Source of the DNA: Armatimonadota bacterium
GTDB lineage: Bacteria; Armatimonadota; UBA5829; DTLH01
NCBI GenBank assembly: GCA_016190935.1
Contig: JACPPP010000110.1
Span: 1-40,897 of the forward strand
Reading direction: 5' to 3'
Length of the DNA: 40,897 bases
Part shown: positions 4,719 through 33,485 of the stretch, in pieces
How positions within the stretch are numbered: position 1 is the first letter of the stretch
How the letters are laid out: each line of letters opens with the position of its first letter
The notes under the pieces: model-generated
What the model was told of the DNA's origin: nothing
Seen by the model: only the letters and a program-made list of their open reading frames with translations
Database searches by the model: none
Made by a program: the position numbers and the translations under genes

Positions 4719-4766
4719 ATACCCACGATGACCTAGGCATAAGACTGTAAGACCATCGCAAAAGAG

Positions 4767-11369: not shown

Positions 11370-12531
11370 CTTCCTTACCTTCAGGAGTGATGATGAACTC
11401 CCTCTTCTTCAACCATGCCTCGACCAACTCGCCATCGTCATCGCGTGAGAACTGCGCTACATTCGACGGTCGAATGCTGACTGTTCTCGGGTTCTTCGCG
11501 TCCTCGAACTTGACATGGAAGCCGGCCTTGAGAATGGGAACCCCCGATGGGATCTTGCGTTCCTTATCAGCAAGCATAGCGAAGATATCGTCAGCCTTCC
11601 ATATCTCGATCTCCTTGTAAGGTCCTCCCCAGAAGAACTGGAGTTCCTTGAGCTTTATCCATTCGATGCCTTCGATGTCGGAGCAAACCAGCGAATCAGC
11701 GCCGCTATCTCGAAGAGGCTTGAGAGTGTACTTCCCGTCACCCGGAAAGAAGTCTTCGTTCCCAAACAAGTGGAGACCCAACATCCTCTTGTAGAGGTCT
11801 ACTTCACCCCTTGTTCCTGCATTGATGCCGATCTCACCGGTGGCGGGCTGATAGATGAGTACGTCATGCTTCCCTGGGCGGTAGTACACGCAGCCTGGTT
11901 CACCGTCCACCATGCTGCCTTCCCGCTTGCACGGTTCGCCGTGGCGTACCAGAAACCACATGCCGTCTTCCCGGACGTAGTGGAACACCCTGCTGCCGCG
12001 CCCACGATTGTGTTCCACGAACCAGTTGTCTAGGTCGGTTTCGAGTGCGCGGATCACGTCTTCACTCGGAGGTGCGAGATCGGTATTCTCATCATCCTTG
12101 GCCTGGAAGTACTGAAACGTGCGCGCTCTGGTCAGCAACTGCTCCGAGTGCTTGCTCTCAAGAAGTCGCGGGTTCTGAAAGTAAACCTGGATTGCGACGT
12201 CTGTAGGCGTGGGATCGGGACGGCCGTCTATGACTATCCCCTCGACATCGGCCTCTCGCAAGAGCTCGTCCATCGCCTCAGGTGTGGACATCTCATTCAC
12301 CAGATGGAGTACCTCCACGAGATCGCTCGGGACGTGGTCGTCGGGAGTTATCAAGATAGCGGCAAGCGCGTCGTAGTCGAAGCCGTCGGCCTCCGTCTCG
12401 GGCGACGGTATCGTAAAGCCTCTGTTGGAAAAGTAGTGAGCGTGCGGGTACAGGAAACGAGTCAGGTTTTGGACTGACACGGCTTTCAGTGTGTCAGGCT
12501 GCGAGAAACGTCTGAGATTGAATGTGGGCAT
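11353..12531 (-). CDS. Uncharacterised conserved-looking protein, partner of 10317-11369
   Basis: About 392 aa from likely start MPTFNLRRFSQPDTLKAV; 17-nt overlap with the downstream gene implies a two-gene operon. Confidence 0.65.
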   Translation of the reverse strand: MPTFNLRRFSQPDTLKAVSVQNLTRFLYPHAHYFSNRGFTIPSPETEADGFDYDALAAILITPDDHVPSDLVEVLHLVNEMSTPEAMDELLREADVEGIVIDGRPDPTPTDVAIQVYFQNPRLLESKHSEQLLTRARTFQYFQAKDDENTDLAPPSEDVIRALETDLDNWFVEHNRGRGSRVFHYVREDGMWFLVRHGEPCKREGSMVDGEPGCVYYRPGKHDVLIYQPATGEIGINAGTRGEVDLYKRMLGLHLFGNEDFFPGDGKYTLKPLRDSGADSLVCSDIEGIEWIKLKELQFFWGGPYKEIEIWKADDIFAMLADKERKIPSGVPILKAGFHVKFEDAKNPRTVSIRPSNVAQFSRDDDGELVEAWLKKREFIITPEGKEDEDEP

Positions 12532-12580
12532 GCTGCTTTCCTTTCTTGTTTCGATTCCTCTCGGAAGCGATATCGACCTT

Positions 12581-13243
12581 TCAGTCAGCGCCCCGGACAG
12601 CCACGACCTTCCCCACAATTCTCAGGTCGTCGTCTGGACCTATGGGCATCGGCTTGTATTTCGGATTCTCCGGCCGGAGTTCAATCCGGTCGTCCGTGAT
12701 ATAGAGCCTCTTTACTGTCGCCTCGTCCTCAAGCAGCGCCACGACTATGTCGCCACTCTCGGACACAGGCTGTTGGCGGACAATCAGCGTGTCTCCCTCA
12801 TTAATGCCCGCGCCTTTCATGCTGTCGCCTTGCACAGCAAGAGCGAAGAACCGACCGCCTGACACCACGCTGCTGTCCACCAAGACCTCACCAATAACAT
12901 TCTCGTCCGCCAAGATCGGTAGTCCTGCGGCTACCCTGCCGATCACCGGCACGGAGACAAGGCCCAAAACCGGGCTGACAGGTTCCCGGACGATTGCCAG
13001 TCCCCTGGCTTTGCCCGGATCTCTCTTCAGATAGCCCTTGCGAACGAGCTGGCTGATCTGGTCGTGAGCGCTCGCGTTCGTGATGCCCAGCAACTCGCCA
13101 AGCTCGGCCACGGTCGGCGGAAAGCCGTGCTGGTCAACAAACCTCTGAATTGCCCTGAGCGTTCTCAACTGCGTGTCGCTTATCTCCGCAGTCGGCTTGC
13201 GCCCAGGCTTGAGTCTTTCACTTGAGCTGTTCTTGGGGTCCAT
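12581..13243 (-). CDS. lexA: LexA-type autocleaving repressor
   Basis: 220 aa; LexA N-terminal wHTH (QHGFPPTVAELGELLGITNASAHDQISQLVRKGYL), AG cleavage site (GRVAAGLPI), catalytic GDSM and ATVKRL Lys. Confidence 0.92.
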   Translation of the reverse strand: MDPKNSSSERLKPGRKPTAEISDTQLRTLRAIQRFVDQHGFPPTVAELGELLGITNASAHDQISQLVRKGYLKRDPGKARGLAIVREPVSPVLGLVSVPVIGRVAAGLPILADENVIGEVLVDSSVVSGGRFFALAVQGDSMKGAGINEGDTLIVRQQPVSESGDIVVALLEDEATVKRLYITDDRIELRPENPKYKPMPIGPDDDLRIVGKVVAVRGAD

Positions 13244-13304
13244 ACTACTTCACCACCAAAGAAGATAAGCCGCTATGCACAAGGCAAGCGACCGCAAGCG
13301 AGAG

Positions 13305-13333
13305 ATTATATCACCTAATGGCTGTCTGGTCAA
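13305..13333 (-). promoter_or_regulatory. Sigma70-type promoter for the lexA-like gene
   Basis: Minus strand TTGACC - 17 nt - TATAAT, 62 nt upstream of the ATG. Confidence 0.65.
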
Positions 13334-13379
13334 TTGCAATATCCGCTCGGTTCTTCACGTACGTGGAAGCCGCGCAGAA

Positions 13380-13420
13380 ATTCCCGGCAACCACCCCCAA
13401 CCGCCAGTAAATATCAACTG
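13380..13420 (+). promoter_or_regulatory. Phage regulatory motif copy A (upstream of early/replication module)
   Basis: ATTCCCGGC-N12-CCGCCAGTAAATATCAACTG, 65 nt from the start of 13486. Confidence 0.7.
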
Positions 13421-13485
13421 TGGACGGGCTGGCTGAGTCCAGTTTAGTCCCGGGGGCGCGCCTCAAACCTTGACTGGAGGACAGA

Positions 13486-13800
13486 TTGATACGAACGGTA
13501 TACAAGTTCACATTCGACGACAGCGTAGCGATGGACGACGTCGAGCGAATACTCGCATTGTCCGCTATTCCCGTGGAGTCGATCCACGGTGAGTCTGCGA
13601 TGTTGGTCGACGGCAGATTTGCCGTGAATAAGAGGCGTCGCACCTGCCTGATAGACGCGGAGTCTCAGCTCGGAAACGACCTCGCGAGAGTGTTCACAGG
13701 ATTCCTGAACGCCAACGCCGGTGGCAGCTTCCGAGTCGATTTCGGGGAGACCGGCGAGCGGCTCGGCGATGTGCTCGATCTGTATGGAGCATTCGCATGA
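13486..13800 (+). CDS. Phage early protein of unknown function
   Basis: TTG start after GGAGG; 104 aa; overlaps the next gene's ATG; first gene of the rightward operon. Confidence 0.6.
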   Translation: MIRTVYKFTFDDSVAMDDVERILALSAIPVESIHGESAMLVDGRFAVNKRRRTCLIDAESQLGNDLARVFTGFLNANAGGSFRVDFGETGERLGDVLDLYGAFA

Positions 13801-14825
13801 ACGAGCCGATGCTCACCACCTACTCATTCTGGAACTCGTTCCGCAACTGCCGGAAAGCCTGCGAGTGGAGGTATCTGAGAGAACTGGTCCCCATCGGTCG
13901 GGACCAGGCCCTCTCATTCGGAACGCTCATCCACACGTGCCTTGAGATGTGGCACGGCGGTGACGGCCTGGATTCCGTGCTCGACTTCCTCGACAGATCA
14001 CTGCCGAACCGGGCGCAGGACGAATCGCGGAAGTCCGACTGGCACTTGGCCAGAGCAATGATGACCGGCTATGCCGCACGGTACGCAACTGAGGATTTCG
14101 ATATCGTCGCTCTTGAGAAAACGTTCGAGGGCAAGATCATCAATCCCGCTACCGGAGCATGTTCCCGCAGCTTGACCATGGCCGGAAAGGTAGACGGCAT
14201 AGTGCGGATGCGGGCAACTGGTGAGCACTACATCCTCGAGCACAAGACGGCCTCGCAAGTGGACGCCGACTATCTGGAACGCCTATGGACTGATCTCCAG
14301 ATCACGCTGTATGCGCGCTACATCGAGCAGACGCTCGGTATTCGCATCGCTGGCGTCATCTACAATGTGCTCGTCAAGGCCAAGCTCCAGCAGGCCAAGG
14401 GCGAGACCGAAGCCGAGTTCGAATCCCGCCGCGCCGACCTGCTGTCCAAATCCAAGACCGGCAAGTCTGCCGCCACGCGCAAGTTGCCGGAATCGGATGA
14501 GGCATTTCAAAACCGGCTCGCAGCCAAGTACGCGGAGCCGGATATGTTCTGTCGAGAAGCTCTCTATATCTCGCGCGACCAGTTCGACGCGATGAAGAGC
14601 GACCTCTGGGAGCTTACCCAGCAGTTCCTCGACTGCAGACGGCGCGACGCGTTCTGCCGGAACACATCCTACTGCTTCGCCAACCATCGGACGTGCGCAT
14701 ACTTCCCGCTCTGTCGTTCAAACGGCAGCGAGAACGTGATCGCCAACTTCTACGAGACGAGACCGCCACACGAGGAGCTGCGGTCGGACTCTGAGATATC
14801 AACCGCCCACAAGGAGGCATTCTGA
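13797..14825 (+). CDS. PD-(D/E)XK (RecB/Cas4-like) nuclease
   Basis: 342 aa; GTLIHTCLE, YILEHKTAS (D/ExK) and C-terminal Cys cluster CRRRDAFCRNTSYCFANHRTCAYFPLC. Confidence 0.83.
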   Translation: MNEPMLTTYSFWNSFRNCRKACEWRYLRELVPIGRDQALSFGTLIHTCLEMWHGGDGLDSVLDFLDRSLPNRAQDESRKSDWHLARAMMTGYAARYATEDFDIVALEKTFEGKIINPATGACSRSLTMAGKVDGIVRMRATGEHYILEHKTASQVDADYLERLWTDLQITLYARYIEQTLGIRIAGVIYNVLVKAKLQQAKGETEAEFESRRADLLSKSKTGKSAATRKLPESDEAFQNRLAAKYAEPDMFCREALYISRDQFDAMKSDLWELTQQFLDCRRRDAFCRNTSYCFANHRTCAYFPLCRSNGSENVIANFYETRPPHEELRSDSEISTAHKEAF

Positions 14826-15559
14826 TGCTACTTCCAACCCAGAAGACACCGCCCAAGCCAAACCTGGCGGACCTCACGGTGCTGGTCTACGGCGCAACAA
14901 AGATAGGCAAATCGACCTGGTGCTCGAACGCGGACCGTGCGGTGTTCCTCTCGACCGAGCCTGGCTTGAACTCCCTGGAGGTATTCCAGGTTCCGATCCG
15001 GTCGTGGGACGAGCTGCTCGCGGCCTGCGGAGAAATAGCCGAGGGTAATCACGAGTTCAAGACCGTGATACTCGACACCGTCGACAACGCGTATCGAATG
15101 TGCGCCGAGCACGTCTGCCGCAAGTTCAAGGTCGAGCACGAGTCCGATCTCGGCTACGGCAAGGGCTTCGCTCTCACCAACAACGAGTTCCAGCGCGTCC
15201 TGAACAAGCTCGCTTTCATGCCCTGCGGCTTGTATCTCATCTCCCATTCCCAGGAGGTGGAGATAGAGACCCGCACCGGCAAGTACAACAAAACCGTGCC
15301 GACACTGCCGGAGAAGGCCAGAAAGATCGTTCTCGGCTTAGTCGACATGGTCCTCTACTGCGACATCGAAACGGCGGCAGGTACCGACAACAAGATGGCG
15401 GCTCGCCGAGTCATGCGCACTAAGCCCAGTCTTAACTATGAGGCCGGTGACCGTACCGGCAAACTGCCCGAAGTGATCGATCTCGACTACGCCAAGTTCA
15501 CCGAGGCGTTCAACGCCACGGCTGACACCAAGAAAACACCCAAGGAGGCAACCCGATGA
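14825..15559 (+). CDS. Sak4-like RecA-fold ATPase
   Basis: 244 aa; Walker A VLVYGATKIGKSTW, Walker B FKTVILDTVDN, LISHSQE. Confidence 0.78.
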   Translation: MLLPTQKTPPKPNLADLTVLVYGATKIGKSTWCSNADRAVFLSTEPGLNSLEVFQVPIRSWDELLAACGEIAEGNHEFKTVILDTVDNAYRMCAEHVCRKFKVEHESDLGYGKGFALTNNEFQRVLNKLAFMPCGLYLISHSQEVEIETRTGKYNKTVPTLPEKARKIVLGLVDMVLYCDIETAAGTDNKMAARRVMRTKPSLNYEAGDRTGKLPEVIDLDYAKFTEAFNATADTKKTPKEATR

Positions 15560-16020
15560 ACCAGGATTACGACAGCACCGGCACGAGCGATCTTGATCTC
15601 GCTCAGTTTGACGACGACTTCGCCGAAGCGCCCGTCGAGGAGCGGGAGTTCGAGGACATACCGGACGGCAAGTATCAGGTGAACGTCGAGAAGGTCGAAC
15701 TCACCCGCGCCCAGTCTTCCGGCAACCCGATGTTGAAGTGGACGCTCAAGATTCTCGGCCCACGGTTCGCAGGACGTCTGCTCTGGCGCAACAGCGTGAT
15801 GGCTTCAAAGGAGAACCTAAAGTGGCTCAAGACCGACCTGCACACCTGCGGGCTGGACGTCGAGAAGCTCTCCGACCTCCCGGCCAGACTCGGCGATCTG
15901 CTCGATGTGAAGCTTGAGGTAACAAAGCGCACCAAGGGCGAGAGCGAGAACATCTACTTCAACCGGCGGATAGTGGTTGAGGACTTGGCTCCCGAGGACG
16001 ACTCGCTCGCCCCGTTCTAA
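15556..16020 (+). CDS. DUF669-like (SSB-associated) protein
   Basis: 154 aa; PDGKYQVNVEKVELTRAQSSGNPMLKWTLKILG pattern next to the Sak4-like gene. Confidence 0.75.
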   Translation: MNQDYDSTGTSDLDLAQFDDDFAEAPVEEREFEDIPDGKYQVNVEKVELTRAQSSGNPMLKWTLKILGPRFAGRLLWRNSVMASKENLKWLKTDLHTCGLDVEKLSDLPARLGDLLDVKLEVTKRTKGESENIYFNRRIVVEDLAPEDDSLAPF

Positions 16021-16550
16021 TGGCGGAACTCATCACAGTCGTAGTCGATACGCGCGAACAGGAGCCGTATTCGTTTCCTCCTCGGCGGTTCGTGATCGAG
16101 CGGAGTGCTCTACCGGCGGGGGACTATTCCCTCGCCGGTCTGGAGCACGTAGTCGCCGTTGAGCGGAAGACGGCCGAGGACTTCGTCCACACGATCATCC
16201 GCGACAGGGACCGGTTCCGCAAAGAGTTGCTAAGGCTCGCTGAATACGACCGCGCCTGTGTGGTAGTGGAAGCCGGACTGGATGATCTCCTCAGCGGAGC
16301 CTATCGTTCCGGCGCGCATCCGAGTTCCGTCGTGGGAGCCGCGCTCTCGATCATCGTCGACTACGGCGTCCCTGTCTATTTCTGCTCCGACCGGCAGTGC
16401 GCACGCCGGTTCGTCGAAGAGTACTTGCTGCGCTACCATCGGAGGGCTCAGGATTCATGCCAACAGCAACAACAGAACACACCCGAATCCGGGGGGAGGT
16501 CGAGCGAGTATTCTTCTCATCCGCCAACTTCTCTGCCGGGCGGTTCATAA
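16020..16550 (+). CDS. ERCC4-domain nuclease
   Basis: 176 aa; VVDTREQEPYSFP...ERSALPAGDYSLAGLEHVVAVERKTAEDFV is the ERCC4 nuclease core. Confidence 0.87.
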   Translation: MAELITVVVDTREQEPYSFPPRRFVIERSALPAGDYSLAGLEHVVAVERKTAEDFVHTIIRDRDRFRKELLRLAEYDRACVVVEAGLDDLLSGAYRSGAHPSSVVGAALSIIVDYGVPVYFCSDRQCARRFVEEYLLRYHRRAQDSCQQQQQNTPESGGRSSEYSSHPPTSLPGGS

Positions 16551-18649
16551 CAGAGCGCGGTGACCGGATACAGTTCGCCGGAAACGTGGTGGTTCAGGAG
16601 AACCAGCCGCTCGTGCTTCACGGCAAGTTCGTTCGGCACCCCAAGTATGGCTTCCAGTTCGAGGTCACGAGCATGGAGTTCGACCGGCAGATGGACGCCC
16701 GCGGGCTCGCCAACTATCTTGCGAACAATCCTGACATCAAGGGTATCGGCCCGGCAAAAGCAAGGATCATCGCTGAGCGGTTCGGCTCGGAGTTCGAGCA
16801 GCACCTAATCGATGAACCGGAGAAGATCGCGGACGCCGCGAAGGTGCCGATCTCGCTTATCGAGTCGCTGCGAGATCACTGGCTTGAGACGAGCAGTGTG
16901 AACCAGGCGATGACGGCGCTTGCCGCATACGGGCTCACACATCATCAGGTAACGAGGCTGGTGAAGAAGCTCGGCAACAATGCAGTCGGCATCATCGAAC
17001 GCGATCCCTATGTCATCGTCGGAGAGATCGACGGCTTTGGCTTCAAGCGGATCGACAAGATCGCTCGGCAGGTGGGCATCGCCAAGGACGAGCCGAGCCG
17101 TGTTCGCGCTGGAATTGTGTTCTGCGTCGATGATGCCCTGGATCAGGGCGACTGCTGGGTGGAGTACGAAGACCTGCTCGACCGGGCGAACGAGCTTCTT
17201 GTGATGGATTGCCTTGACAGCCGAGAGCAGATCGAGAAGCACCTGGACAATCTGATCGATGAGAAGTCCCTGACCTGCTACCCCGCAGACTGCCGGTTCC
17301 TCGTGGCGAAGCCGTTCATCCGGAGCACGGAAGAGGACCTGGCGCGTGTGTTCGCTGGCGGTGTAAAGCCCAGCCCGTGCCTTGGTGACAAGTCCGATCT
17401 GCAGACTGAGGTGAAACGTGTCGCGCCGCGACTCAATCCCAAGCAGCTTGACGCGGCCGTTAGTGCCGCCGCACACTCCATATCACTCATCTCCGGTGGT
17501 GCTGGATCCGGCAAGACATTCACCGTTGCCGCCATGACTCGGCTCTGTGACGAGCATGACCTGCGCGTAGTGCTCTGCGCGCCGACCGGCAAGGCCGCCA
17601 AACGAATGGAAGAGGCCACCGGGCGGGAAGCGTCAACGATCCATAGGCTGCTTGGTTTCAACGGCAAGACCTATGCGCGCGACTCGGAGAATCCTATCTC
17701 TGCCGACATGCTCATTGTCGACGAGGTTTCGATGGTCGATGTGGTTCTAGCCTGGCATCTGTTCCAGGCAATCGATCTTGACCGCACGGCCGTTGTTCTC
17801 GTTGGCGACCACAATCAACTTCCGCCTGTCGGCCCGGGCAACATCCTTCGAGACCTGATCGAGTCCAGAGTACTGCCGACAACAGTCCTCGACGATATAG
17901 TCAGACAGGCCGGTATCCTCAAAGAGAACAGCATCGCGATTCTCAAGGGCGAAGTGCCAAAGACTCCGCAGCGCGATACCTCCGCGCGGGGCGCATGGTA
18001 CGTCGCTGATCAGCATACCGATGCGGAACGAGTCCAGCGGTTCGTTCTCGACCTGTTCGAGCACACTCTCAACGAGAAGCTGGGCTTTGACATCCTGCGA
18101 GACGTACAGCTTCTGACTCCAACGCATAAGGGCCCGCTCGGCACAGTCGAACTGAACACTAAGCTCCAGCGCCTCATCCAGCGGAAGCTCTGGAACTACG
18201 ACGCGCCGCCCGTTCAGACAGGCAGACGTCCTAAGCTGCTCGTCAATGACAAGGTCATTCAGACCCGGAACAACTACGACCTCGGAGTCATGAACGGCGC
18301 GATGGGTATTGTCCGCAGCGTTGGTCTCGACGGGTCGCTAACCATCGAGTTCGAGGACAAGACGGTCCACATCGAGGCCGGGGTACCGCAGCGCAGTGAC
18401 ATCCAGCTTGCCTACGCGCTCACCATTCACAAGTCCCAGGGGTCGGAGTTTCCCTGTTCGGTGGTCATCGCACACAAGTCGCACTCGTTTATGCACCATC
18501 GGAACCTGCTCTACACCGGAGTGACCCGAGCCTCTCAGACCGCCATCATCGTCGGCGACCACTGGGGAATCGCCAACTGCGCCAAGCGCGTGCAGGTGGA
18601 TGCGCGGAAGACGTTCCTATCACTCCTGTTGAACAGGGGTGCCCAATGA
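16457..18649 (+). CDS. RecD/RecD2-like SF1 helicase
   Basis: Start MPTATTEHTRIRGEVERVFF; HhH region, Walker A SGGAGSGKTFT, VDEVSMVD, LTIHKSQGSEF, TGVTRASQ. Confidence 0.92.
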   Translation: MPTATTEHTRIRGEVERVFFSSANFSAGRFITERGDRIQFAGNVVVQENQPLVLHGKFVRHPKYGFQFEVTSMEFDRQMDARGLANYLANNPDIKGIGPAKARIIAERFGSEFEQHLIDEPEKIADAAKVPISLIESLRDHWLETSSVNQAMTALAAYGLTHHQVTRLVKKLGNNAVGIIERDPYVIVGEIDGFGFKRIDKIARQVGIAKDEPSRVRAGIVFCVDDALDQGDCWVEYEDLLDRANELLVMDCLDSREQIEKHLDNLIDEKSLTCYPADCRFLVAKPFIRSTEEDLARVFAGGVKPSPCLGDKSDLQTEVKRVAPRLNPKQLDAAVSAAAHSISLISGGAGSGKTFTVAAMTRLCDEHDLRVVLCAPTGKAAKRMEEATGREASTIHRLLGFNGKTYARDSENPISADMLIVDEVSMVDVVLAWHLFQAIDLDRTAVVLVGDHNQLPPVGPGNILRDLIESRVLPTTVLDDIVRQAGILKENSIAILKGEVPKTPQRDTSARGAWYVADQHTDAERVQRFVLDLFEHTLNEKLGFDILRDVQLLTPTHKGPLGTVELNTKLQRLIQRKLWNYDAPPVQTGRRPKLLVNDKVIQTRNNYDLGVMNGAMGIVRSVGLDGSLTIEFEDKTVHIEAGVPQRSDIQLAYALTIHKSQGSEFPCSVVIAHKSHSFMHHRNLLYTGVTRASQTAIIVGDHWGIANCAKRVQVDARKTFLSLLLNRGAQ

Positions 18650-19209
18650 ACACGATCCAGGCAATTGAGACTCAGTACAACGGCTACAGATTCCGCAGCA
18701 GGCTGGAAGCACGATGGGCGGTGTTCTTTGACAGCCTCGGCGTCCCCTACCTCTACGAGCCTGAGGGGTTCGAGCTTGGCGACGGAGTCAGGTACCTCCC
18801 GGATTTCTGGCTGCCTGATCAGCATTGTTGGGTGGAGATAAAGCCTCCCGGCGAGTGGGACTATCACCTTGAATGCGATCTCCTCGCCGAGCGGTCCGAC
18901 TGCCAACTGTTACTCTACATAACGGGTAACCCCTGGCCAGGGGAGTATGGAATCGTGCCATACCCGGCCACAAGCGAACTACACAGTAGTTCGGCTTGGG
19001 TCTTTGCCCTGGGGCGCAAGAGTGATCGCGAGCTGTGGATATGCAACGACGATGTCGGCGCGGAATGCCTGAACCCCATCGCTCTTGAGGACGAGAAATA
19101 CCCTTCGGCAAATGCTCCACGGCTCATCGGCGCGTACAGGGCGGCCCGTCGGGCGCGCTTTGAGTTCGGTGAGCGGCGGCCGAGATACCGGGGGTGGCCA
19201 AATGGATAG
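18646..19209 (+). CDS. PD-(D/E)XK-like endonuclease
   Basis: 187 aa; YRFRSRLEARWAVFFDSLGVPYLYEPE...YLPDFWLPDQHCWVEIKP. Confidence 0.68.
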   Translation: MNTIQAIETQYNGYRFRSRLEARWAVFFDSLGVPYLYEPEGFELGDGVRYLPDFWLPDQHCWVEIKPPGEWDYHLECDLLAERSDCQLLLYITGNPWPGEYGIVPYPATSELHSSSAWVFALGRKSDRELWICNDDVGAECLNPIALEDEKYPSANAPRLIGAYRAARRARFEFGERRPRYRGWPNG

Positions 19210-21829
19210 GAACACTCCGGAGGCCATGGTCTACGATCTGATACCGGACGAACTCAAAGCACTTCGGCAGTGGGTCTGCTACCGCATCGAGGATCGCAAT
19301 GGCATTCCCACCAAGATACCATACCGAACGGACAAAGTCGGACGCGGTAACGCCAAGACCAATGATCCGGCGACCTGGCATACTTTCGATGAGGTACTGG
19401 AAGCGGCCGCCAAGCCCGCAAACAGGTTCGACGGCATAGGGTTCGTACTATCTGAGTCCGACCCTTATGTGTTCGTGGATCTCGACCATGTGGTGAACGA
19501 CGGTGAGATGGAGCCCTGGGCGCTTGAGATGATCGGGCGCATTGGTTCCTACACGGAGTTCAGCCGGTCGGGAACGGGCATCCACATCGTCACGCGAGCA
19601 AAGAAACCCGGACCCAGGTGCCGGACACACAGCAGGCCGCAGTTCGAGATATACGACGACGTGCGGCTCGTCGTGTTTACGGGCAGGCTGTGGCCCGGCT
19701 CGCCAACCGAGATCAACGGCGCTCAGGAGGCAGTGAGCGAGATTTACTTCGACGTGTTCGGTGAGAACCCCCAGAACGTCCCGCCGAAGGAGAGCACAAA
19801 AAACGTCCGGCCGGTCGGAAAGTCCGATCCGGCGCTCATCGAGGAAGCCTTGTCCGCGACCAACGGAGAGAAGTTTGGGCGGCTGTGGAACGGGAACATC
19901 GGGGAGTACAACGGCGATGCCAGCGCGGCGGACATGGCGCTCTGCTGCATGCTTGCGTACTGGACGGACAAAGACCCTGCCAGGATGGACAGGCTGTTCC
20001 GCGAGTCGGGACTGATGCGCGACAAGTGGGATGAATCGCGAGGCCCGAAAACATACGGACAGATCACGATTGACGCAGCCAACGGTATAGTCAAAGAGAC
20101 CTATGCCGACCACACAGGCAAACGGAAACGGCGCGCGAAGCGAGATGCCGGAGTAGCTAAGACGCAAACGCGCCCCGTTGAAGGTCTACCTGCCATCCGT
20201 GCCGACTGCCAGGACCTTCGCAGCGTGACAGGTCAGTGCTGGGAGGCCATCGCCAGTGCCAACAACCCTCCGAGGTATTTCCGGTATATCGGTCTTCCTT
20301 CCAGACTCGAAAAAGACGATGATGGGATGCTGGTCCCCAGGGAACTGACTCCCGACAGGCTGCGACACGAACTGGCTCGTGTGGCGAATTGGGTAAGCGG
20401 GGAGCAGGATGAATCGGCCAAGCCTCCAGTCGATGTCGTGAGGGACGTGCTGGCGACTCCCAATCCTCCGCTGCCGGTGCTGGCGCGTATCACGGACGTT
20501 CCTGTGTTCGCTCCGGATGGTTCGCTCTCAATGGCCGAGGGCTACCATGCCGCCGGGCAGACATATCGGATGTCGAGGGCCGGGCTGAAGATTCCCGACA
20601 TACCGTCTGCCCCATCGTCAGGCGAGGTCGATGCAGCGAAGAGCCTGATCCTCGATATGATCTCAGAGTTCCCGTTCGTGGATGAAGCCGACCGCGCGCA
20701 TGCCGTCGGACTCCTTCTTCTCCCATTCGTGCGAGACCTTATCGACGGGCCGACGCCCAACCATCTTGTCGAGGCTCCGCAGGCGGGCACGGGAAAAGGA
20801 CTGCTGGCCGATGTCCTGCTGACACCCGCCTGTGGCAAGCAGGTGTCGACTATTTCCGAGGCCAGGGACGATGACGAATGGCGAAAACGGATAACCGCGC
20901 AACTCCGCAGCGCGCGCACGGTGGTTCTCCTGGACAACGTCACGCGGCCGCTCAACTCCGGGGCACTGGCTTCCGCGCTTACGGCAACGGTCTGGGAGGA
21001 CCGGATACTGGGCAAGTCTGAGAACCTGCATATCCCCGTGCGCTGCGTCTGGGTGACGACTGCCAACAATCCCACCATGACAACGGAAATCGCCAGGCGA
21101 TGCATACGCATTCGGCTGGACGCAAAGGTGGACCGTCCGTGGTTTCGTGACGGGTTCAGGCAGAAGAAGCTTCGCGGTTGGGCGCTTGCTAACCGCGGCG
21201 AACTGGTGGGCGCTGCTCTTACGCTCGTCCAGGCATGGGTGTGCGCCGGTATGCCCGCCTCCGAGACCAAGCCGCTGGGTTCCTATGAACAATGGACCGC
21301 GATAGTCGGGGGGATACTGCAGCACGTGGGTGTACCCAGGTTCCTGTCGAACCTCCTTGAGTTCTACGAGCAGGCGGACATCGAGGGAACGATGTGGCGG
21401 CAACTGGTCGAGGCATGGTCGGAGAAGTTCGGTCAGGAGCGCGTGGGAGTGAACGACCTGTTTGACCTGGCTTTGGAACTGGACGTGTTCGACTTCGGCA
21501 AAGGCGGCGAGAGGTCGCAAAGGACTGCTTTTGGCCGACGGCTCAGTCGGCAGCGTGATCGTGTGATAGGCGAAAATAGGATAATCGCTGCGGGGAAATC
21601 CAAGCGCGCGAGTCAGTGGATGCTGGTTCCTACAAGCGATCTGTTTTCCGGGAGGGTGAACATAGAGAACATCGGTGAACATTCCCCCTCTTCCCCTCAT
21701 GCGCCAGCGCACACACATGCATGCGCACATGCATGTGTAGACGAGGGTGAGAATGTTCACTCAGGTTCACTATGTTCACCCGACGAGTCTGCTCCGGCTT
21801 CGTCCATGCCGGGCTATGAGGAGTTCTGA
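19202..21829 (+). CDS. PrimPol-like primase/helicase
   Basis: Start MDRNTPEAMVYDLIPDELKALRQWVCYR; AEP-like core (VFVDLDHVV; SRSGTGIHIV), C-terminal P-loop segment VEAPQAGTGKGLLADVLLTPA. Confidence 0.82.
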   Translation: MDRNTPEAMVYDLIPDELKALRQWVCYRIEDRNGIPTKIPYRTDKVGRGNAKTNDPATWHTFDEVLEAAAKPANRFDGIGFVLSESDPYVFVDLDHVVNDGEMEPWALEMIGRIGSYTEFSRSGTGIHIVTRAKKPGPRCRTHSRPQFEIYDDVRLVVFTGRLWPGSPTEINGAQEAVSEIYFDVFGENPQNVPPKESTKNVRPVGKSDPALIEEALSATNGEKFGRLWNGNIGEYNGDASAADMALCCMLAYWTDKDPARMDRLFRESGLMRDKWDESRGPKTYGQITIDAANGIVKETYADHTGKRKRRAKRDAGVAKTQTRPVEGLPAIRADCQDLRSVTGQCWEAIASANNPPRYFRYIGLPSRLEKDDDGMLVPRELTPDRLRHELARVANWVSGEQDESAKPPVDVVRDVLATPNPPLPVLARITDVPVFAPDGSLSMAEGYHAAGQTYRMSRAGLKIPDIPSAPSSGEVDAAKSLILDMISEFPFVDEADRAHAVGLLLLPFVRDLIDGPTPNHLVEAPQAGTGKGLLADVLLTPACGKQVSTISEARDDDEWRKRITAQLRSARTVVLLDNVTRPLNSGALASALTATVWEDRILGKSENLHIPVRCVWVTTANNPTMTTEIARRCIRIRLDAKVDRPWFRDGFRQKKLRGWALANRGELVGAALTLVQAWVCAGMPASETKPLGSYEQWTAIVGGILQHVGVPRFLSNLLEFYEQADIEGTMWRQLVEAWSEKFGQERVGVNDLFDLALELDVFDFGKGGERSQRTAFGRRLSRQRDRVIGENRIIAAGKSKRASQWMLVPTSDLFSGRVNIENIGEHSPSSPHAPAHTHACAHACVDEGENVHSGSLCSPDESAPASSMPGYEEF
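21654..21781. repeat. Long inverted repeat with iteron-like half sites and central hairpin (candidate replication origin)
   Basis: Arms 21654-21684 and 21751-21781 match 27/31 as inverted copies; central ACACATGCAT-GCGCAC-ATGCATGTGT hairpin. Confidence 0.6.
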
Positions 21830-22767
21830 TGGCGTACCTCGATTCACTGACAAGACACGCCCTCAGGGCGAGCATTCAGCCGGACGGCAAGATCAGGCTG
21901 GAGCCGGACTGGCTTATCACGGACGGCATCCGGCAGATAGTCCACGAGCACCGTGAGGAGCTTGTCCGGGAGATCACCGAGAACGCGGCATCTGGCGATC
22001 CGTCCGAGGAGACCGTCTCCGACTATCACCTTCTTTGGGTCGCGACGGACCTCGACTCGTTCGAGGAATACGATCCCCGATTCGGTTACGAGCTGAGCTG
22101 CGATCCCGTTTACCGGATGCTGGACGCTCCCTACTATGCCTGGTTGCGACACCGGATGGAGAACGCCCGGAAGTCTCACGGAGCGGGACGTCTAGACGAC
22201 TCGGCGTTCGAGGTTCTGAGAACCCGGTTCAACACCATCCATTCCTGGGCTGTCCGGCACATCGGCGAGGAGGCTCTTCGGCGAGCGATCAGGACCACGA
22301 ACGTGAAGTCCTATGTGCCGCCATCAGAGCAAACCTTCTCGGCTTACCGCAAGACCTGGGACGACGCCTGGAGTGCCTATCAGCGAAATCAGGCTGCATG
22401 CAACCGGTCTGCGGAACCATCTGATCAGGCGCGCAGGCTCCAGCATCTGCTCGATACCCAGGGATACGCTGGCATTCGGTCATCCATCATCGACGATGTC
22501 GTTGTCTTCGTCCGGGATGAGTCGGTGGTAGTCCCTCACAAGTGGACAACCAAGGTCCGGTTCACGCTGGACGAGTTGCGCCTGATGGTCGGCTCCTCCC
22601 CGGACGCTGTAAAACAGATCCACGAGGTCAAGCGGGTGTTCGGCGGAAAGGTCGTGCCCTCGGGAGATAATCCATTCGCGGTCAAGGGATCCGGGGGAAA
22701 CGTCATGCCGATACCTGCTGCCCAGCAGACTCTATTCCAGGCCGGGACAACAGCAAGCGCAATATAG
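21829..22767 (+). CDS. Phage protein of unknown function
   Basis: 312 aa ORF directly after the primase; N-terminal TubC_N-like look (LRASIQPDGKIRLEPDWLITDGIRQIVHEHREELV). Confidence 0.6.
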   Translation: MAYLDSLTRHALRASIQPDGKIRLEPDWLITDGIRQIVHEHREELVREITENAASGDPSEETVSDYHLLWVATDLDSFEEYDPRFGYELSCDPVYRMLDAPYYAWLRHRMENARKSHGAGRLDDSAFEVLRTRFNTIHSWAVRHIGEEALRRAIRTTNVKSYVPPSEQTFSAYRKTWDDAWSAYQRNQAACNRSAEPSDQARRLQHLLDTQGYAGIRSSIIDDVVVFVRDESVVVPHKWTTKVRFTLDELRLMVGSSPDAVKQIHEVKRVFGGKVVPSGDNPFAVKGSGGNVMPIPAAQQTLFQAGTTASAI

Positions 22768-22812
22768 GGCGCGAAGTGCCTCCCCCGCCCATCTCCGGAT
22801 TGCCGTAACAAC

Positions 22813-23343
22813 TTGAGCGATAGGAACACATTGATGATTGACGAAATGCGAACAGAACAGACAGAGCCTGAGATCGGAGCCAGGGATCGCGATGGGATGG
22901 ACCGCTGGCAGAGGAACACTGAGGCGAAACGCGGTCCCGGCGCTCCCGAGGGCAATACGAACGCCCTGAAGCATGGCATATACGCCGACCGATTCCTCTC
23001 ACCTGAGGAGCGCGTCATCTTCGACGCGATCATCCTGCAGCTTCACCAGGACTTCGTGTTCAACAAGAGCTCGGACTTCATGCAGGTGGAACTGGTGGCG
23101 GTCTACTTCTTGAAGCTGGAGCGTGCGCAGGAGGCAGGCGACTGGGAAGCAGCAGAACGGCTGGACCGGATGATACGCTGCCACCTCAAGGACCTCAAGG
23201 CGACCAAGATCGCGCGTGAGGGTGAGGAGCCGAAGGGTGCAGAGACTACTCCCGCCGAGTGGGCCACTGCGTTACTTGAGAAGCTGGCCGACGCGGAGAA
23301 GAACGCCCGGGCCGGGTCAGAGTCGGAGAAAACGCAGGAATGA
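22813..23343 (+). CDS. Terminase small subunit-like protein
   Basis: 176 aa; GPGAPEGNTNALKHGIYAD motif common at the N-terminus of phage small terminase-like proteins; upstream of the large terminase. Confidence 0.6.
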   Translation: MSDRNTLMIDEMRTEQTEPEIGARDRDGMDRWQRNTEAKRGPGAPEGNTNALKHGIYADRFLSPEERVIFDAIILQLHQDFVFNKSSDFMQVELVAVYFLKLERAQEAGDWEAAERLDRMIRCHLKDLKATKIAREGEEPKGAETTPAEWATALLEKLADAEKNARAGSESEKTQE

Positions 23344-23543
23344 GTTCGGATAACACCAGTTTGGCTTTGGGGGATCGGCGCGATCCACGCGTGGATTTCC
23401 GACTGAGTGAGAAACTGAGTTCCGATAAGACGTGTTCTCGGAACTTTCTCACTGCCGGAATCCGCCGCTCGGAACAATGGCTGCCGGAAATGCTGGCTGG
23501 GGAAAGGTCGATGAGTGTTCATTTCCCCAGCAGTGAGGGTGAG

Positions 23544-24461
23544 TCAGATCAGTTCGAGCGCATCCTCCAGCGCCTCGTCAGAGAGGTGCGTGTAGATTTC
23601 AGTCGTCGAGATGTCGCAGTGGCCGAGGGCGCGCTTCACCAGAAGCAGGTCGGAGGTTCTGGCGTAGAGGTGAGTCGCGAAGGTGTGTCGGAGGCCGTGA
23701 GGCGAGATACGCTTTGCGATGCCAGCCGCATCCAGCCAGCGCTTCAGCCGCTGCGCGATCTGCCTGTCGCAGAGCCGAGTCCCTCTGGAGGATACGAACA
23801 GGGCACGACATTCGCCAGTGTCGAGTCTGCGTCGTTCCTGGAGATAGCTCCTCAGCAGAGTGCGGAGAGACGACTTCAGAAACTTGACCTGCGGGATGTT
23901 GCCCTTGCCGGTAATGCGGATGTGCTTGCCGTCGAGGTCAACGTCGTCTATGTCCAGGTTCACCAGTTCCGCGAGCCGAATGCCGGTGCCGAGGAACATC
24001 TCGAAGATGACTCGGTCTCTGCGCGCAATCGGATTGGCGCGGTCATGGAGTTCCTTGAGGAGCCTGCGCTTCTCGGCCTCGGTCAGGAACTCCGGCGGCG
24101 TTCTCGCCAGTCGCTTTGTGGTAACGGTCTTAGCCGGGTTGGTCTCGGTGAGACCACTCTCAGCGGTCCAGGCGAAGAACGAACGGACGACGGCCTTCAG
24201 CCGATGCATTGTTGCCGGGGACTTGGGCGCGGCACCGTCGGAGTACGCGACTACAGGATCGATGAGCGCGGCGTCGATCATCCCAGGCGTGATGCTTCGC
24301 ATACCGTCACTGGGCAGCGCGCGGGCGAAGCATCGCAGGTCACGCAGATAGGCGGAGATGGTATGCTCCGAGCGACCTTGCGCCCGGAGCCTTACCGCGA
24401 AGTTGTCTATCGTCCGTTCGAGGTCGTCAGTCGGCTGCAGCAACCGGATCGGATTCGGCAT
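23544..24461 (-). CDS. Tyrosine recombinase (XerC/D-like)
   Basis: 305 aa; core-binding domain, GTGIRLAELVNL, ISPHGLRHTFATHLYA, LGHCDISTTEIYTHLS. Confidence 0.94.
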   Translation of the reverse strand: MPNPIRLLQPTDDLERTIDNFAVRLRAQGRSEHTISAYLRDLRCFARALPSDGMRSITPGMIDAALIDPVVAYSDGAAPKSPATMHRLKAVVRSFFAWTAESGLTETNPAKTVTTKRLARTPPEFLTEAEKRRLLKELHDRANPIARRDRVIFEMFLGTGIRLAELVNLDIDDVDLDGKHIRITGKGNIPQVKFLKSSLRTLLRSYLQERRRLDTGECRALFVSSRGTRLCDRQIAQRLKRWLDAAGIAKRISPHGLRHTFATHLYARTSDLLLVKRALGHCDISTTEIYTHLSDEALEDALELI

Positions 24462-24822
24462 TGCTCACCTCCGGTGTTGCCTTGAGGCTGCGGCCCATGG
24501 GTGTGTCTTTCGGGAGTGGGAGCTTGGGGATGTAGCCCTGTTCCTTTGCCCAGACCAGGAACGTGCGGAAGACGCGGATGGTCTTCTTGACAGTGATCTC
24601 GGAGCGGTCCTTGTCGCCGTGCATCTTGAGGAGCGCGTCCGACTTGAGGAACCCGGATACGTGTGGGATCAGGATCGCCGAGAGCTTCTTGTCGGGACCG
24701 AAGAACGCCTCGACCTGTTCGAGGTCTTTTGAGTAGGTATAGAGCGTGCGTTCGCTCTTGCCCTGGCCCTTGAGATACTCAAGGTGCTCATGGACAGCTT
24801 CGTGAAGTGTCTTTTCCGTCAT
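24427..24822 (-). CDS. Stand-alone SAM-like core-binding domain protein
   Basis: From MTEKTLHEAVHEHLEYLKGQGKSERTLYTYSKDLEQVEAFF; matches the N-terminal domain of tyrosine recombinases but has no catalytic domain; overlaps the next gene. Confidence 0.75.
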   Translation of the reverse strand: MTEKTLHEAVHEHLEYLKGQGKSERTLYTYSKDLEQVEAFFGPDKKLSAILIPHVSGFLKSDALLKMHGDKDRSEITVKKTIRVFRTFLVWAKEQGYIPKLPLPKDTPMGRSLKATPEVSNAESDPVAAAD

Positions 24823-24898
24823 TCTACTACCTCCTGATGGTTGGGTGTTGCATTCACATTCACGCTCAGGTTGCATGTGAAGTCAAGTCATTCTTGCC

Positions 24899-26458
24899 TT
24901 GAATGTGCAGGGAAATGCTGAGGAGAAACGGTTGGGTCGGATAACGTCGGAAGAAGAGAGGCTTGGAATGTCGCTCAGGGACCCTGTCCTGTGGGGCCAG
25001 GGATACTTGTGTAACCGGGACGGCTCTGCTCGCACATACTGGTCGCACCAGGTGGAGGACCTGCAGTGCGAGGACCGGAACATCATCCACCTTGACGGCC
25101 GCGACTCCGGCAAGTCCATATCGCTCACTACTGACGCGCTGCACTTCGCCTTCACCACTCGCGGTGGCCAGGGACTCGTCGCTGCTCCGCACCAGGGACA
25201 CCTCGACACGCTCATTGAGGAGATAGAGTTCCAGATCGATTCCAATCCCGAGCTGACGAGAAGTATCGCCGTCACGAAGTACGGCAAGCCAAAGATATAT
25301 CGCAAGCCTTACTTCCGGCTGGAGTTCACGAATGGCGCGGTCCTCTATTTCCGGCCTGCCGGTGCCTACGGCGACGCGTTCCGGTCACTGCACGTCGAGC
25401 GGGTGTGGGTCGACGAGGGCGCGTGGCTCACCGAGAAGGCGTGGAGGGCGCTTCGGCAGTGCTTGAAAGCTGGAGGGACGCTGCGCATATACTCCACTCC
25501 TAATGGGCTCAGGGACACGACATACTACCGTCTCACCAGCTCGAACCAGTTCAGTGTGTTCCGCTGGCCGTCTTGGCTGAATCCGGACTGGAGCGATGAG
25601 CGCGAGCGGGAACTGCTGGAGTTCTACGGGGGCCGAGACACAGCCGGCTGGCAGCACGAGGTCGCAGGCGAACACGGCAAGCCCTCATACGGTGCGTTCA
25701 ACGTGGAGTACTTGAACCTCTGCAGGCAGGAGGTCCTGGAGTATCGCAGGATTGCGATCACTGGCGAGGACTTGAGTTCGTGCGATACAGAGGAGGAATC
25801 CTACGACCGGCTTGAGATGCTGCTCAACCTGATGCCGCAGACTGGTGTGTTCTGGATAGGCGGCGACCTGGGTTACACCAACGACCCGACTGAGATCGTC
25901 GTGTTCCGGGAGACCGATCTGGGCGAGCGGTCAGTGCTCACACTGGTTGTGCGCATTCACATGGAGCACGTATCTTATCCGCACATCGCTCAGGTCATAT
26001 CGCTCCTGGAGCGTTACTATGCGCCAGTCGGCGTAGGCATTGACAACGGGGGTAACGGTCTCGCGGTCGTCCAAGAGCTTCTAACGCTCGACAAGTATCG
26101 CCCCCTGCAGTTTGAGGCCAGGCTCCGTGGCTACGACTTCGGCGGGGTGACTACTCTGGCTGTCCGGGATGGTCGAGAGGTTCGTAAGCGCACCAAGGAA
26201 CTCATGACCACTCTCATCAACGGCGCGCTGCAGAGGCGTCAAATGATCCTGCCTGCGGACGACTCGGAAATCGAGGACCAGTTCACGACGCACACTTACA
26301 CGCTCTCAAACGGCAACATCATCTATTCCAAGGGCAACGACCACATCATCGACGCGGTCCGCTGTGCGATGCTGGCCCACGAGCAGGCGACCTTGGATAC
26401 GGTGAGCGAGGAGACGGTCTCGGTGATACCAGTGCTGACGAACCCGATTTTCATCTGA
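24899..26458 (+). CDS. Terminase large subunit
   Basis: 519 aa (start could be 24968); HLDGRDSGKSISL ATPase motif, RVWVDEGAW Walker B, nuclease-like IGGDLGYTNDPTEI and NDHIIDAVRCAML. Confidence 0.9.
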   Translation: MNVQGNAEEKRLGRITSEEERLGMSLRDPVLWGQGYLCNRDGSARTYWSHQVEDLQCEDRNIIHLDGRDSGKSISLTTDALHFAFTTRGGQGLVAAPHQGHLDTLIEEIEFQIDSNPELTRSIAVTKYGKPKIYRKPYFRLEFTNGAVLYFRPAGAYGDAFRSLHVERVWVDEGAWLTEKAWRALRQCLKAGGTLRIYSTPNGLRDTTYYRLTSSNQFSVFRWPSWLNPDWSDERERELLEFYGGRDTAGWQHEVAGEHGKPSYGAFNVEYLNLCRQEVLEYRRIAITGEDLSSCDTEEESYDRLEMLLNLMPQTGVFWIGGDLGYTNDPTEIVVFRETDLGERSVLTLVVRIHMEHVSYPHIAQVISLLERYYAPVGVGIDNGGNGLAVVQELLTLDKYRPLQFEARLRGYDFGGVTTLAVRDGREVRKRTKELMTTLINGALQRRQMILPADDSEIEDQFTTHTYTLSNGNIIYSKGNDHIIDAVRCAMLAHEQATLDTVSEETVSVIPVLTNPIFI

Positions 26459-26579
26459 CGCGCCAGGTCGCGATCCTCGCGGCAAACTCGACAGGCGGCT
26501 CATTAGTCGTGGCAGGAGACACTCGCGCTGTGCGCGCGAACGTGGCGCGAACAGTCGCTAACCCGACAGGAGGTCTTGA

Positions 26580-28100
26580 TTGAACAACACCAACTCGGAA
26601 GCTCAAGAGTCCATGGAACAGAACGCTGCATACGGAATTGTGATCCCCGCGCTGGCGGCCGCCGCCGCGCTTGACTCATCCACGTTCAGCAGCATCAATG
26701 CCAACGACGCGATCCCAGCGAATTGGGATGACCGGGCCAGGAAAGCCTGGGAGTATTACGTCGAGGAGCCGCTGGTGAAGAACTGCGTGAACTCCTGGCG
26801 CACATTCGCCGTGGGAGACGAGATCAAGATCACGAGCGACGATGACGCAGTCAAGAGCGAAGCCAATGAGCTTGCCGACCGCCTCGGTGTCTCCGAGTTC
26901 GTGAAAGACATGATCCTCCAGCTTCTGGTCAAGGGCGATGCTGTCGGGTTCAAACGCTACACCAAAAACGGCAAGGACATCGAGGAAGTCACCTGCGTCA
27001 ACCCGATCTCGGTCAAGGTGAAATACGCGCAGGGACAGCTCGTCGAAGTTCGGCAGTATCCTGAAGACAGTCCAACGGCCGGAGAGGGACTTGAGCTGCC
27101 GGTCGAACAGACGCTGCACCTGAAATGGGATGCTCCCGAGTTCTCGCCGCGCGGCAACTCGCTCGTGCTGCCTGCGTTTCAGTCCATCGAACTGCTCCGG
27201 GATTACCGGCGCGCCGAACAAGCCATAGCCAAACGCTGGGCTACGCCATTCCGGCTGCTCAAGGTCGGAGGCGCGTTCGGTCAGAAGATGGTGATGCCCG
27301 ACCAGAAGATGCTTGAGCAGGTCCGCGACATGATCAACAAGATGGACATGAAGAGCGGTCTGGTCGTGCCGTTCTACGTGACTGTCGAGACCCACGGCAC
27401 GGAAGGCCAGGTCCTCAACGTCGAGGACAAGGTCAAAGAGGTCAAGGAAGACATCGTCGTTGCGCTGGGGCTATCGCGTTCTCTTGTCACAGGCGACGGT
27501 CCCAACTTCGCAACAGCGTCGGTCAGCATGCAGAAGATGCTCATCATGATCCGGGAGATAAAGCACGCCGCGCGCACCATTCTCGAATGGATATACGACG
27601 ACTGGCGGGAGCTTGCCGGGCACGCGGGCAAGAGCATCCAGTTCCTCTTCAACGACCTCGACCCGACCGATGCGGTTGATTTCAAGAAGCTCCTCATAGA
27701 GCTATACGACCGCAAGCTGATAAGCCGCTCGTCCCTCCAGCTCAAGATGGACCTCGACCCGGATATCGAGGAGGCCAACCGGCAGAACGAATGCAAGTCC
27801 GTCGATCTGCTCGATGAGAAACAGGTCAAGCCCATCGTCGATATGGTCGTGGCCGGAATCATGAGTGTCGAGACCGCTCAAGAAATGCTTGGTCTTGACC
27901 CGGCGAAGAACCCGGCAGGTTCCAGGTCGGAGGCGGCGTGGGCAGGATTATTCAGTCACGGCGGTCATAGCGGAGAGGTCTGTGACTCCTGCGCATACTT
28001 CGGTGAAGATGACAATCGCTGCAGAGTTACTCAGGCTGAGGTGGCCTTCGATTCCCCGGCGTGCCGGTTCCTCCAGCTCAGGAAGGTCGAGAGCAAGTGA
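26580..28100 (+). CDS. Portal protein
   Basis: 506 aa; location after terminase and portal-like pattern (VPFYVTVETHGTEGQVLNVEDKVKEVKEDIVVALGLSRSLVTGDGPNFATASVSMQ). Confidence 0.82.
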   Translation: MNNTNSEAQESMEQNAAYGIVIPALAAAAALDSSTFSSINANDAIPANWDDRARKAWEYYVEEPLVKNCVNSWRTFAVGDEIKITSDDDAVKSEANELADRLGVSEFVKDMILQLLVKGDAVGFKRYTKNGKDIEEVTCVNPISVKVKYAQGQLVEVRQYPEDSPTAGEGLELPVEQTLHLKWDAPEFSPRGNSLVLPAFQSIELLRDYRRAEQAIAKRWATPFRLLKVGGAFGQKMVMPDQKMLEQVRDMINKMDMKSGLVVPFYVTVETHGTEGQVLNVEDKVKEVKEDIVVALGLSRSLVTGDGPNFATASVSMQKMLIMIREIKHAARTILEWIYDDWRELAGHAGKSIQFLFNDLDPTDAVDFKKLLIELYDRKLISRSSLQLKMDLDPDIEEANRQNECKSVDLLDEKQVKPIVDMVVAGIMSVETAQEMLGLDPAKNPAGSRSEAAWAGLFSHGGHSGEVCDSCAYFGEDDNRCRVTQAEVAFDSPACRFLQLRKVESK

Positions 28101-33147: not shown

Positions 33148-33485
33148 GGCTTCGATACATGATTGAACACGCGCTTCGGGATCGGGACATGAACCCGCGC
33201 TATGAACCCATCGGCGTTTGGGTTCAGGGTTCCGGCCCAGGGCTGGATATCGTGATGGAATACCTGCCGGGCAATGAGGACGCCCAAGAGGAAGCGGACT
33301 GGGTCATCAACCGCTTGGTGGAGAACGATATCAGGTCCCTGCCGGGTGACTTCCTGGAGTATCACCGGTCCACGATGTCCCCGTATCGCGGCATGCGCGG
33401 AGAGATAGTGGAGACCGAGGAGTATGCGACGGCGGAGGAGTGCGCCGCACGTGTGCTTTCGGGTCTACCAAGACCTCCTACTTAG
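33144..33485 (+). CDS. Protein of unknown function
   Basis: 113 aa from ATG at 33144 overlapping the previous stop; MRLRYMIEHALRDRDMNPRYEPIGV. Confidence 0.55.
   Translation: MRLRYMIEHALRDRDMNPRYEPIGVWVQGSGPGLDIVMEYLPGNEDAQEEADWVINRLVENDIRSLPGDFLEYHRSTMSPYRGMRGEIVETEEYATAEECAARVLSGLPRPPT

Follow-up and report, generated by a model that had tools for sequence, protein, structure and literature searches.

A candidate iteron-type replication origin at the 3' end of a prophage primase-helicase gene

The replication origins of most phages are unknown. The element considered here, an inverted array of short repeated words within the 3' end of a prophage primase-helicase gene, has its closest parallels in the Staphylococcus aureus pathogenicity islands (SaPI), the staphylococcal cassette chromosome mec (SCCmec), P4, pRN1 and Sfi21. 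It lies in a stretch of 40,897 nucleotides from an Armatimonadota bacterium (assembly GCA_016190935.1, contig JACPPP010000110.1, positions 1 to 40,897), hereafter referred to as the window. According to the available parts of the papers cited in this paragraph, SaPI Rep and SCCmec Cch2 are self-loading helicases with a C-terminal DNA-binding domain and with short iterons directly downstream of their gene; Cch2 binds its iterons through this domain, and two hexamers have been proposed for SaPI (PMC7581432). In pRN1, a segment 3' of the replication gene sufficed together with the replication operon, and in pRN1 and BIP-1 a large stem-loop lies 3' of a gene for a prim-pol, superfamily 3 (SF3) helicase and winged-helix protein, with a sequence unconserved between relatives and with no iterons described in that part of the text (PMC4234260). 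The polymerase of the Nitratiruptor phage NrS-1 is a hexameric SF3-like helicase (PMC7102993) with the primase sites GTGA and GTGG, 5' of which lies the template base where synthesis begins (PMC8718748), and its 8-nt recognition sites were suggested as a possible origin (PMC7102993, PMC8718748). A resistance effect of the Sfi21 type has been attributed to an origin (PMC6356513).

Judged by sequence comparison, the 126-bp segment at positions 21655-21780 of the window is likely to be the replication origin of the prophage, of iteron type and recognised by the primase-helicase whose gene contains it. A candidate origin at this place had been put forward from the letters of the window alone (the original prediction), and the arrays found at the same place in relatives, together with searches by DNA pattern alone, make it the best-supported reading.

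The inverted array and its gene

The array consists of three GGTGAACAT-like words facing three inverted copies over a 70-bp spacer, inside the last codons of the primase-helicase gene. The start of this gene was placed at the ATG at 19205, within a longer open reading frame (ORF; 19085-21829). The gene and the words are as follows.

19205-21829, plus strand: NrS-1-type primase-helicase gene, the presumed initiator (Pfam PF22763; PHROG DNA primase families)
19922-20104, plus strand: helix-bundle domain of the primase part, PF22763 (residues 240-300)
21655-21663, plus strand: left iteron 1, GGTGAACAT
21664-21672, plus strand: left iteron 2, AGAGAACAT, imperfect
21674-21682, plus strand: left iteron 3, GGTGAACAT
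21753-21761, minus strand: right iteron 1, ATGTTCACT, inverted
21763-21771, minus strand: right iteron 2, AGGTTCACT, inverted and imperfect
21772-21780, minus strand: right iteron 3, ATGTTCACC, inverted

The start-to-start pitch of the words is 9 and 10 bp in the left arm and 10 and 9 bp in the right arm, so the two arms are mirror images. This confirms the three half sites per arm, spaced by about one helical turn, that had been noticed at the outset; the arms 21654-21684 and 21751-21781 do match at 27 of 31 positions, and the peptide quoted as encoded here was correct. A repeat finder extended the arms to 38 nt, 82% complementary, with 52 nt between them. The array exceeds chance: with up to one mismatch, GTGAACAT occurs 34 times in the window (25.1 expected) and 6 of these 34 copies fall in the array's 124 bp, and the exact-word detector, applied to the 40.9 kb, found exactly one array with five exact copies in the real window and none in 200 codon-shuffled windows. 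The array segment occurs once in the host genome.

The NrS-1 helix-bundle domain was recognised in the protein at residues 240-300 (Pfam, E value 1.7e-28), as in a PrimPol of the NrS-1 type. The Pfam helicase models gave no match in this protein, and a PHROG family named DNA polymerase/primase spans residues 414-798. Several short repeats stand beside the 3' end of the gene for this presumed initiator-helicase, as in SaPI, SCCmec and P4.

Layout and words in related loci

A profile of the primase domain was used to fetch 160 loci, namely the best 80 of 445 viral and the best 80 of 430 genomic confirmed relatives. Clustering at 85% reduced these to 122, of which 91 had a long ORF and 400 bp past the stop codon, 15 had short ORFs and 16 lacked a usable stop or flank. 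An exact-word array was found within 400 bp of the primase-helicase stop in 45 of the 91 non-redundant relatives (mean of 0.39 and maximum of 2 in 100 3-mer shuffles), and arrays were 24 times denser near the stop than elsewhere in these loci (45 in 72.8 kb versus 21 in 821 kb). Word spacing in the relatives peaked at 9 bp (55) and 10 bp (31). A mismatch-tolerant detector yielded 46/91 relatives versus 1/182 control windows from the same loci, and the two detectors united gave 54/91 array-positive relatives (29/53 viral and 25/38 genomic). The comparison with related phages that had been proposed as a check thus favours the prediction, with an inverted array of 2-3 + 2-3 words recurring at the same place. 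Near the stop of the short, primase-only ORFs, 0 of 15 loci had an array, which argues that the array accompanies the helicase-bearing gene.

The layout is kept and the word is exchanged. Among the 45 array loci, 42 different 6-mer cores were identified. Inspection of the 3' ends of relatives showed that each lineage has a word of its own: GGTGAACAT is present in two 97%-identical relatives, GGTGTATGT in L003 (76% protein identity), GGTGAGTTT in L077, L078, L080 and L082, TGTGACG in L006, L007 and L083, and GGGGAACCT in L013. Where the word changes between relatives, the direct copies of one arm and the inverted copies of the other change together. A plain stem needs only matching arms, and the words are also repeated within each arm at about the pitch of the helical turn, suggesting that a protein reads each word. 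The prediction was to be abandoned if homologous primase genes lacked a GTGAACAT-like array; as relatives with GGTGTATGT, TGTGACG, GGTGAGTTT or GGGGAACCT keep the layout with a different word, this proved too narrow a test. Since many related phages keep both layout and place with other words, the array most probably marks the site at which replication of the phage DNA begins.

The host genome also contains three more relatives that are primase-helicases or helicases: L065 (contig C6), L070 (C80) and L071 (C328). The gene ends of L065 and L070 carry repeated GCGAAAT-like and GTGGAGGG-like words, and L070 was also found by the detector; such differences would be expected of co-resident elements that keep their origins separate. 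Locus L102, on a contig shared with L015, has a TGTAAC array of 22 word copies, 68-658 bp past the stop. Its two 3+3 blocks, separated by about 325 bp, give it the look of a duplication.

Of the 45 relatives, 8 have the array inside the ORF, 15 have it across the stop and 22 past the stop. The first of these numbers, like the coding position in the window, would fit repeats kept for the low-complexity protein tail that they encode, with the DNA pattern as a by-product. The two arms of the window encode different peptides, the copies are frame-shifted relative to one another (pitch 9 and 10) and the array is wholly past the stop codon in 22/45 relatives. Selection on the peptide was rejected on these grounds; this explanation is largely refuted and scarcely tenable.

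IMG/VR was also searched for two array words by DNA pattern only, without protein information. GTGAAC matched 26 stretches and GTGACG at least 120, 146 of them among the matches listed, to which the following counts of loci, clusters and families refer. A long ORF ends within 450 bp in 134/146, the other 12 being without a qualifying ORF, and the 134 loci form 55 clusters at 60% identity. The 55 cluster representatives matched DUF5906 (32), D5_N (24), Pox_D5 (9) and Prim-Pol (6), more rarely VapE (3), the NrS-1 helix-bundle domain (3) and DUF927 (1), and single PHROG families named DNA primase matched up to 30 of them; other families include 2 resolvases and 1 lipase. For clusters matching any of the helicase families, 32/55 is a lower bound. 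The DNA pattern alone therefore leads to initiator helicases of several families, as the matches to DUF5906, D5_N, Pox_D5, VapE and DUF927 indicate. The words also have a preferred polarity toward the core (GTGACG, at least 120 stretches versus 15 reversed; GTGAAC, 26 versus 3 reversed), part of which may be explained by shared ancestry, since one cluster holds 46/134 loci. Three of the contigs found by pattern (L300, L316 and L325) each have two successive GTGACG arrays, about 104-112 bp apart.

These data also bear on the gene next to the array.

21829-22767, plus strand: 312-aa gene, whose start overlaps the primase stop; probably dispensable for the array (homologue in 1/45 array-positive relatives)

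The 312-aa protein had been named as a possible binder of the array. This is unlikely, and a general role as binder was rejected, because a homologue was found in only one of the 45 array-positive relatives. The conserved companion of the array thus appears, from the sequences compared, to be the primase-helicase and not the downstream gene. The array stands between these two genes, and inverted repeats can serve as operators or as RNA hairpins, so the genes downstream might be controlled by a regulator that binds the words or by RNA folded from the arms. Such an operator or terminator is very unlikely: the array occurs with other downstream genes, the direct copies within each arm are also kept and would be needless for a stem, the pattern-only scans point to D5/DUF5906-type genes, and arrays after (22), across (15) or before (8) the stop have no fixed distance from a start codon. 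At the array, no Rfam family reached its cut-off (best E value 0.61) or came near it, and an RNA element was rejected on this basis.

Annotated phages provide further cases. In Sfi21 (AF115103), a 302-bp region directly past the primase gene is annotated as replication origin and phage inhibitory sequence, and it contains inverted TTAGTTACT-type words flanking an AT-rich core. NrS-1 has a 4+4 array of the word GGTTACACTTT directly past its primase gene, overlapping an annotated small gene, and this array includes one copy of TTTGGTTA, the 8-nt primase recognition sequence given in the available part of PMC8718748. A single exact copy of TTTGGTTA was found in record bases 12000-30000; the authors count two copies of the 8-nt site. 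P4 (NC_001609) has annotated type 1 repeats in both orientations, the commonest being ACTGTTCACC, that is GGTGAACAGT, which differs from the window word GGTGAACAT at 1 base of 9; this shared word may be due to chance, because 42 different cores occur in 45 loci. Arrays were also found past the stop in phi105, Listeria LP-P111, Wrath and JNU_P9, that of phi105 occupying 30-158 bp beyond the stop of gp60, and a weak array was found near the stop in Halfdan. In BIP-1, for which the available part of PMC4234260 proposes a stem-loop origin, the detector identified a 2+2 array at record positions 26607-26710.

Core, candidate binder and replication signal

The core between the arms has three features.

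21683-21698, plus strand: pyrimidine-rich tract TCCCCCTCTTCCCCTC adjoining the left arm; in L003 and L077 a comparable tract follows this arm
21707-21739, no strand assigned: perfect alternating purine-pyrimidine run of 33 bp, the presumed melting or Z-prone core
21713-21738, no strand assigned: perfect hairpin with an 11-bp stem and a 4-nt loop, not kept in the closest relatives

The next-longest alternating run anywhere in the window is 12 bp. The perfect hairpin noted in the original prediction is real and embedded in this run, although its dimensions had been given as a 10-bp stem and a 6-nt loop; the stem is formed by 21713-21723 and 21728-21738. It is missing in both 97%-identical relatives (best stem 4 bp), which have alternating runs of 22 and 29 bp; a third close relative has one of 24 bp. 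The hairpin was therefore dismissed as the key feature, being lost in the closest relatives that retain the alternation. A long stem-loop without iterons, as in pRN1 and BIP-1, does not describe the locus either, since iterons are present and the hairpin is unconserved. In the core analysis, which took 31 of the 45 array loci (core length 35-140), the longest alternating run exceeded 95% of same-length segments of the locus in 16/31 relative cores and 27/55 pattern-found cores, and core GC was below the locus mean in 28/31 and 54/55, respectively, with the window among the exceptions. Cores tend to be alternating, GC-poor or both. Alternation and low GC both favour opening or a change of form under negative supercoiling. 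The conserved element of the core thus appears to be purine/pyrimidine alternation or a lower GC content rather than the hairpin.

The candidate binder is the C-terminal domain of the primase-helicase.

21350-21646, plus strand: predicted winged-helix DNA-binding domain (model residues 41-139; AlphaFold2 and structure comparison)

This domain of about 135 residues ends just before the array and is common to 25 proteins, including that of the window. The AlphaFold2 model (mean predicted local distance difference test score, pLDDT, 81.5; blocks 51-140 at 90-97) has three helices and a beta hairpin in winged-helix order, and structure comparison placed winged-helix chains among the best matches (best Z 8.2; MCM8, Cdt1, Z-alpha and others), in a listing in which middling Z values are common. 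The Z-alpha matches were not used, as many other winged helices are listed too. A PDB sequence search with the C-terminal profile gave a single match (E value 0.16) and Foldseek nothing below an E value of 0.001, so the predicted winged helix is based on the model, the order of helices and strands, and the structure comparison. One helix position, compared by eye in a few aligned sequences, holds T in the window, I in L003, H in L077, L080 and L082, and S in L084, each group having its own word; the residue agrees between proteins with the same word and differs between those with different words.

In array-positive loci, GC skew is higher in the 2.85 kb past the stop than in the 2.85 kb ahead of it (n = 34; mean rise +0.030, p = 0.0014, with gene orientation uncontrolled), versus a mean change of -0.007 in array-negative loci (n = 46, p = 0.52); the direct comparison of positive and negative loci in the 91-locus set gave p = 0.008 (42 versus 30). 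GC skew, which had been proposed as a check, therefore supports the prediction in the array-positive loci, and the window's own shift is borderline.

That borderline shift is one of several observations that weigh against an origin at the array. At third codon positions it amounts to +0.057 (95% interval -0.0003 to 0.115), and its onset seems to lie within the primase gene rather than at the array. Nor is the core AT-rich, with 60% GC versus 58% in the window. No array was found with either detector in 37/91 relatives, nor near the stop in RcTitan, 9NA, JD001, Seurat and JCL1032 or in the large-phage helicases of RpAliso, CcrSC, phiCbK and phiAsp2, and Kakheti25 has only one weak match there. 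The annotated iterons of P4 were missed by the exact detector, because their words are arranged differently. Going by the life styles that we take phi105, Sfi21, LP-P111, Wrath, JNU_P9, JCL1032 and the other named phages to have, the array is perhaps typical of temperate phages and satellites, in a small sample in which JCL1032 would be an exception.

The early start of the skew shift would also suit a cis-acting element that controls replication, such as a counterpart of P4 crr or a site for incompatibility or handcuffing. The primase-helicase would bind this element, and the phage would initiate elsewhere. In P4 the iterons form two distinct regions, ori and crr, of which crr lies directly 3' of the alpha gene, and the words themselves speak to binding, not to start sites. 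However, the detector finds only one array in the window and, over 18 kb of NrS-1 (record bases 12000-30000), only one merged region of arrays, the element in this position in Sfi21 bears an origin annotation, and the pRN1 segment 3' of the replication gene was sufficient with the replication operon, as stated in the available part of PMC4234260. We therefore regard a control element as unlikely.

If the array is the origin, we infer that the predicted C-terminal winged helix would bind each 9-10 bp word, and that the three words per side, in opposite orientation, would lead to two helicase assemblies facing each other across the 70-bp core. The core, with 60% GC and alternating over 33 bp, would be the easily deformed part, opening or flipping under negative supercoiling; the helicases would then unwind outward and the fused primase would start the strands. 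Most window words contain GTGA, and with GTGA on both arms and the start rule of the NrS-1 polymerase, primers would run outward. This double use of GTGA is attractive for the window's type of word, and it is not general: GTG or CAC is present in 16/45 words, and random 10-mers drawn from the loci gave 9.8 (standard deviation 2.7, maximum 18), on which basis a GTG primase site was rejected as a general rule. The left word holds GTG in 10 cases and CAC in 7, and NrS-1 is itself of the opposite polarity.

More tentatively, and with considerable doubt, phages with primase-helicase initiators might follow a common origin grammar: direct words (2-4, with a pitch of 9-10 bp), a core that alternates or is AT-rich, and the words mirrored, located where the initiator gene ends. 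Close relatives would differ in the word together with the recognition helix, so that each phage has a private origin; in words of the window's type, the same bases would load the helicase and then, through the primase site GTGA, prime leading strands outward, and a GC-rich alternating core would flip (Z-like) instead of melting. A general rule of this kind, in which the layout is fixed, the word free and the core either alternating or AT-rich, was not found in the full-text literature, as judged by title and abstract and with subscription papers barely covered. If such a layout can be recognised in the sequence alone, with any word and in a predictable position, it would provide many testable origins and explain the low-complexity tails of primase genes. 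It would also predict whose origins a given phage or satellite is able to use, block or titrate, as is thought for the Sfi21 element, and offer a natural series for the joint change of specificity in initiator and site.

Prophage context and comparison with known systems

The window contains a prophage with bacterial genes at its left side (aspartyl- and histidyl-tRNA synthetase types and tRNA-Glu). From the left, the prophage gene order is a large serine recombinase (6806-8191), recombination and helicase genes, the primase-helicase, terminase and portal. The recombinase (minus strand) is the likely integrase at the left prophage end, near tRNA-Glu (4766-4842). An AbiEii-type nucleotidyltransferase gene (33478-34446, minus strand; Pfam) overlaps a second ORF (34443-35237, minus strand); within the prophage, the two are candidates for an AbiE pair, a type IV toxin-antitoxin system. 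The 312-aa protein (21829-22767) has no Pfam or PHROG match; its N-terminus carries a short motif kept in relatives (L003, L006 and L007, downstream of the primase gene), which we take to resemble TubC N-terminal docking domains.

The original prediction had drawn an analogy with lambdoid phages. No O-protein match was obtained for the array-carrying gene in the Pfam and PHROG scans, and lambda is not the closest parallel, the five systems named at the outset being nearer. By its sequence, the array appears to belong to a known class, the iteron origins at the 3' end of a helicase-initiator gene. SaPI spacers are AT-rich. Unlike SaPI and SCCmec, the window has its array within coding sequence, an NrS-1-type primase fused to the helicase and a spacer that is GC-rich and alternating. 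P4 also has a primase-helicase and repeats in both orientations, but its words are irregular and not in a mirror-symmetric 3+3 arrangement. The Sfi21 element likewise directly follows the primase gene, with inverted words around a core, but it is non-coding, with an AT-rich core and the word TTAGTTACT. NrS-1 has a protein of the same type as that of the window, whereas its word is GGTTACACTTT and its array is not described in the available parts of PMC7102993 and PMC8718748. What is unusual in the array of the window is that it is embedded in coding sequence, that its core is alternating rather than AT-rich, and that the word is swapped while the syntax stays.

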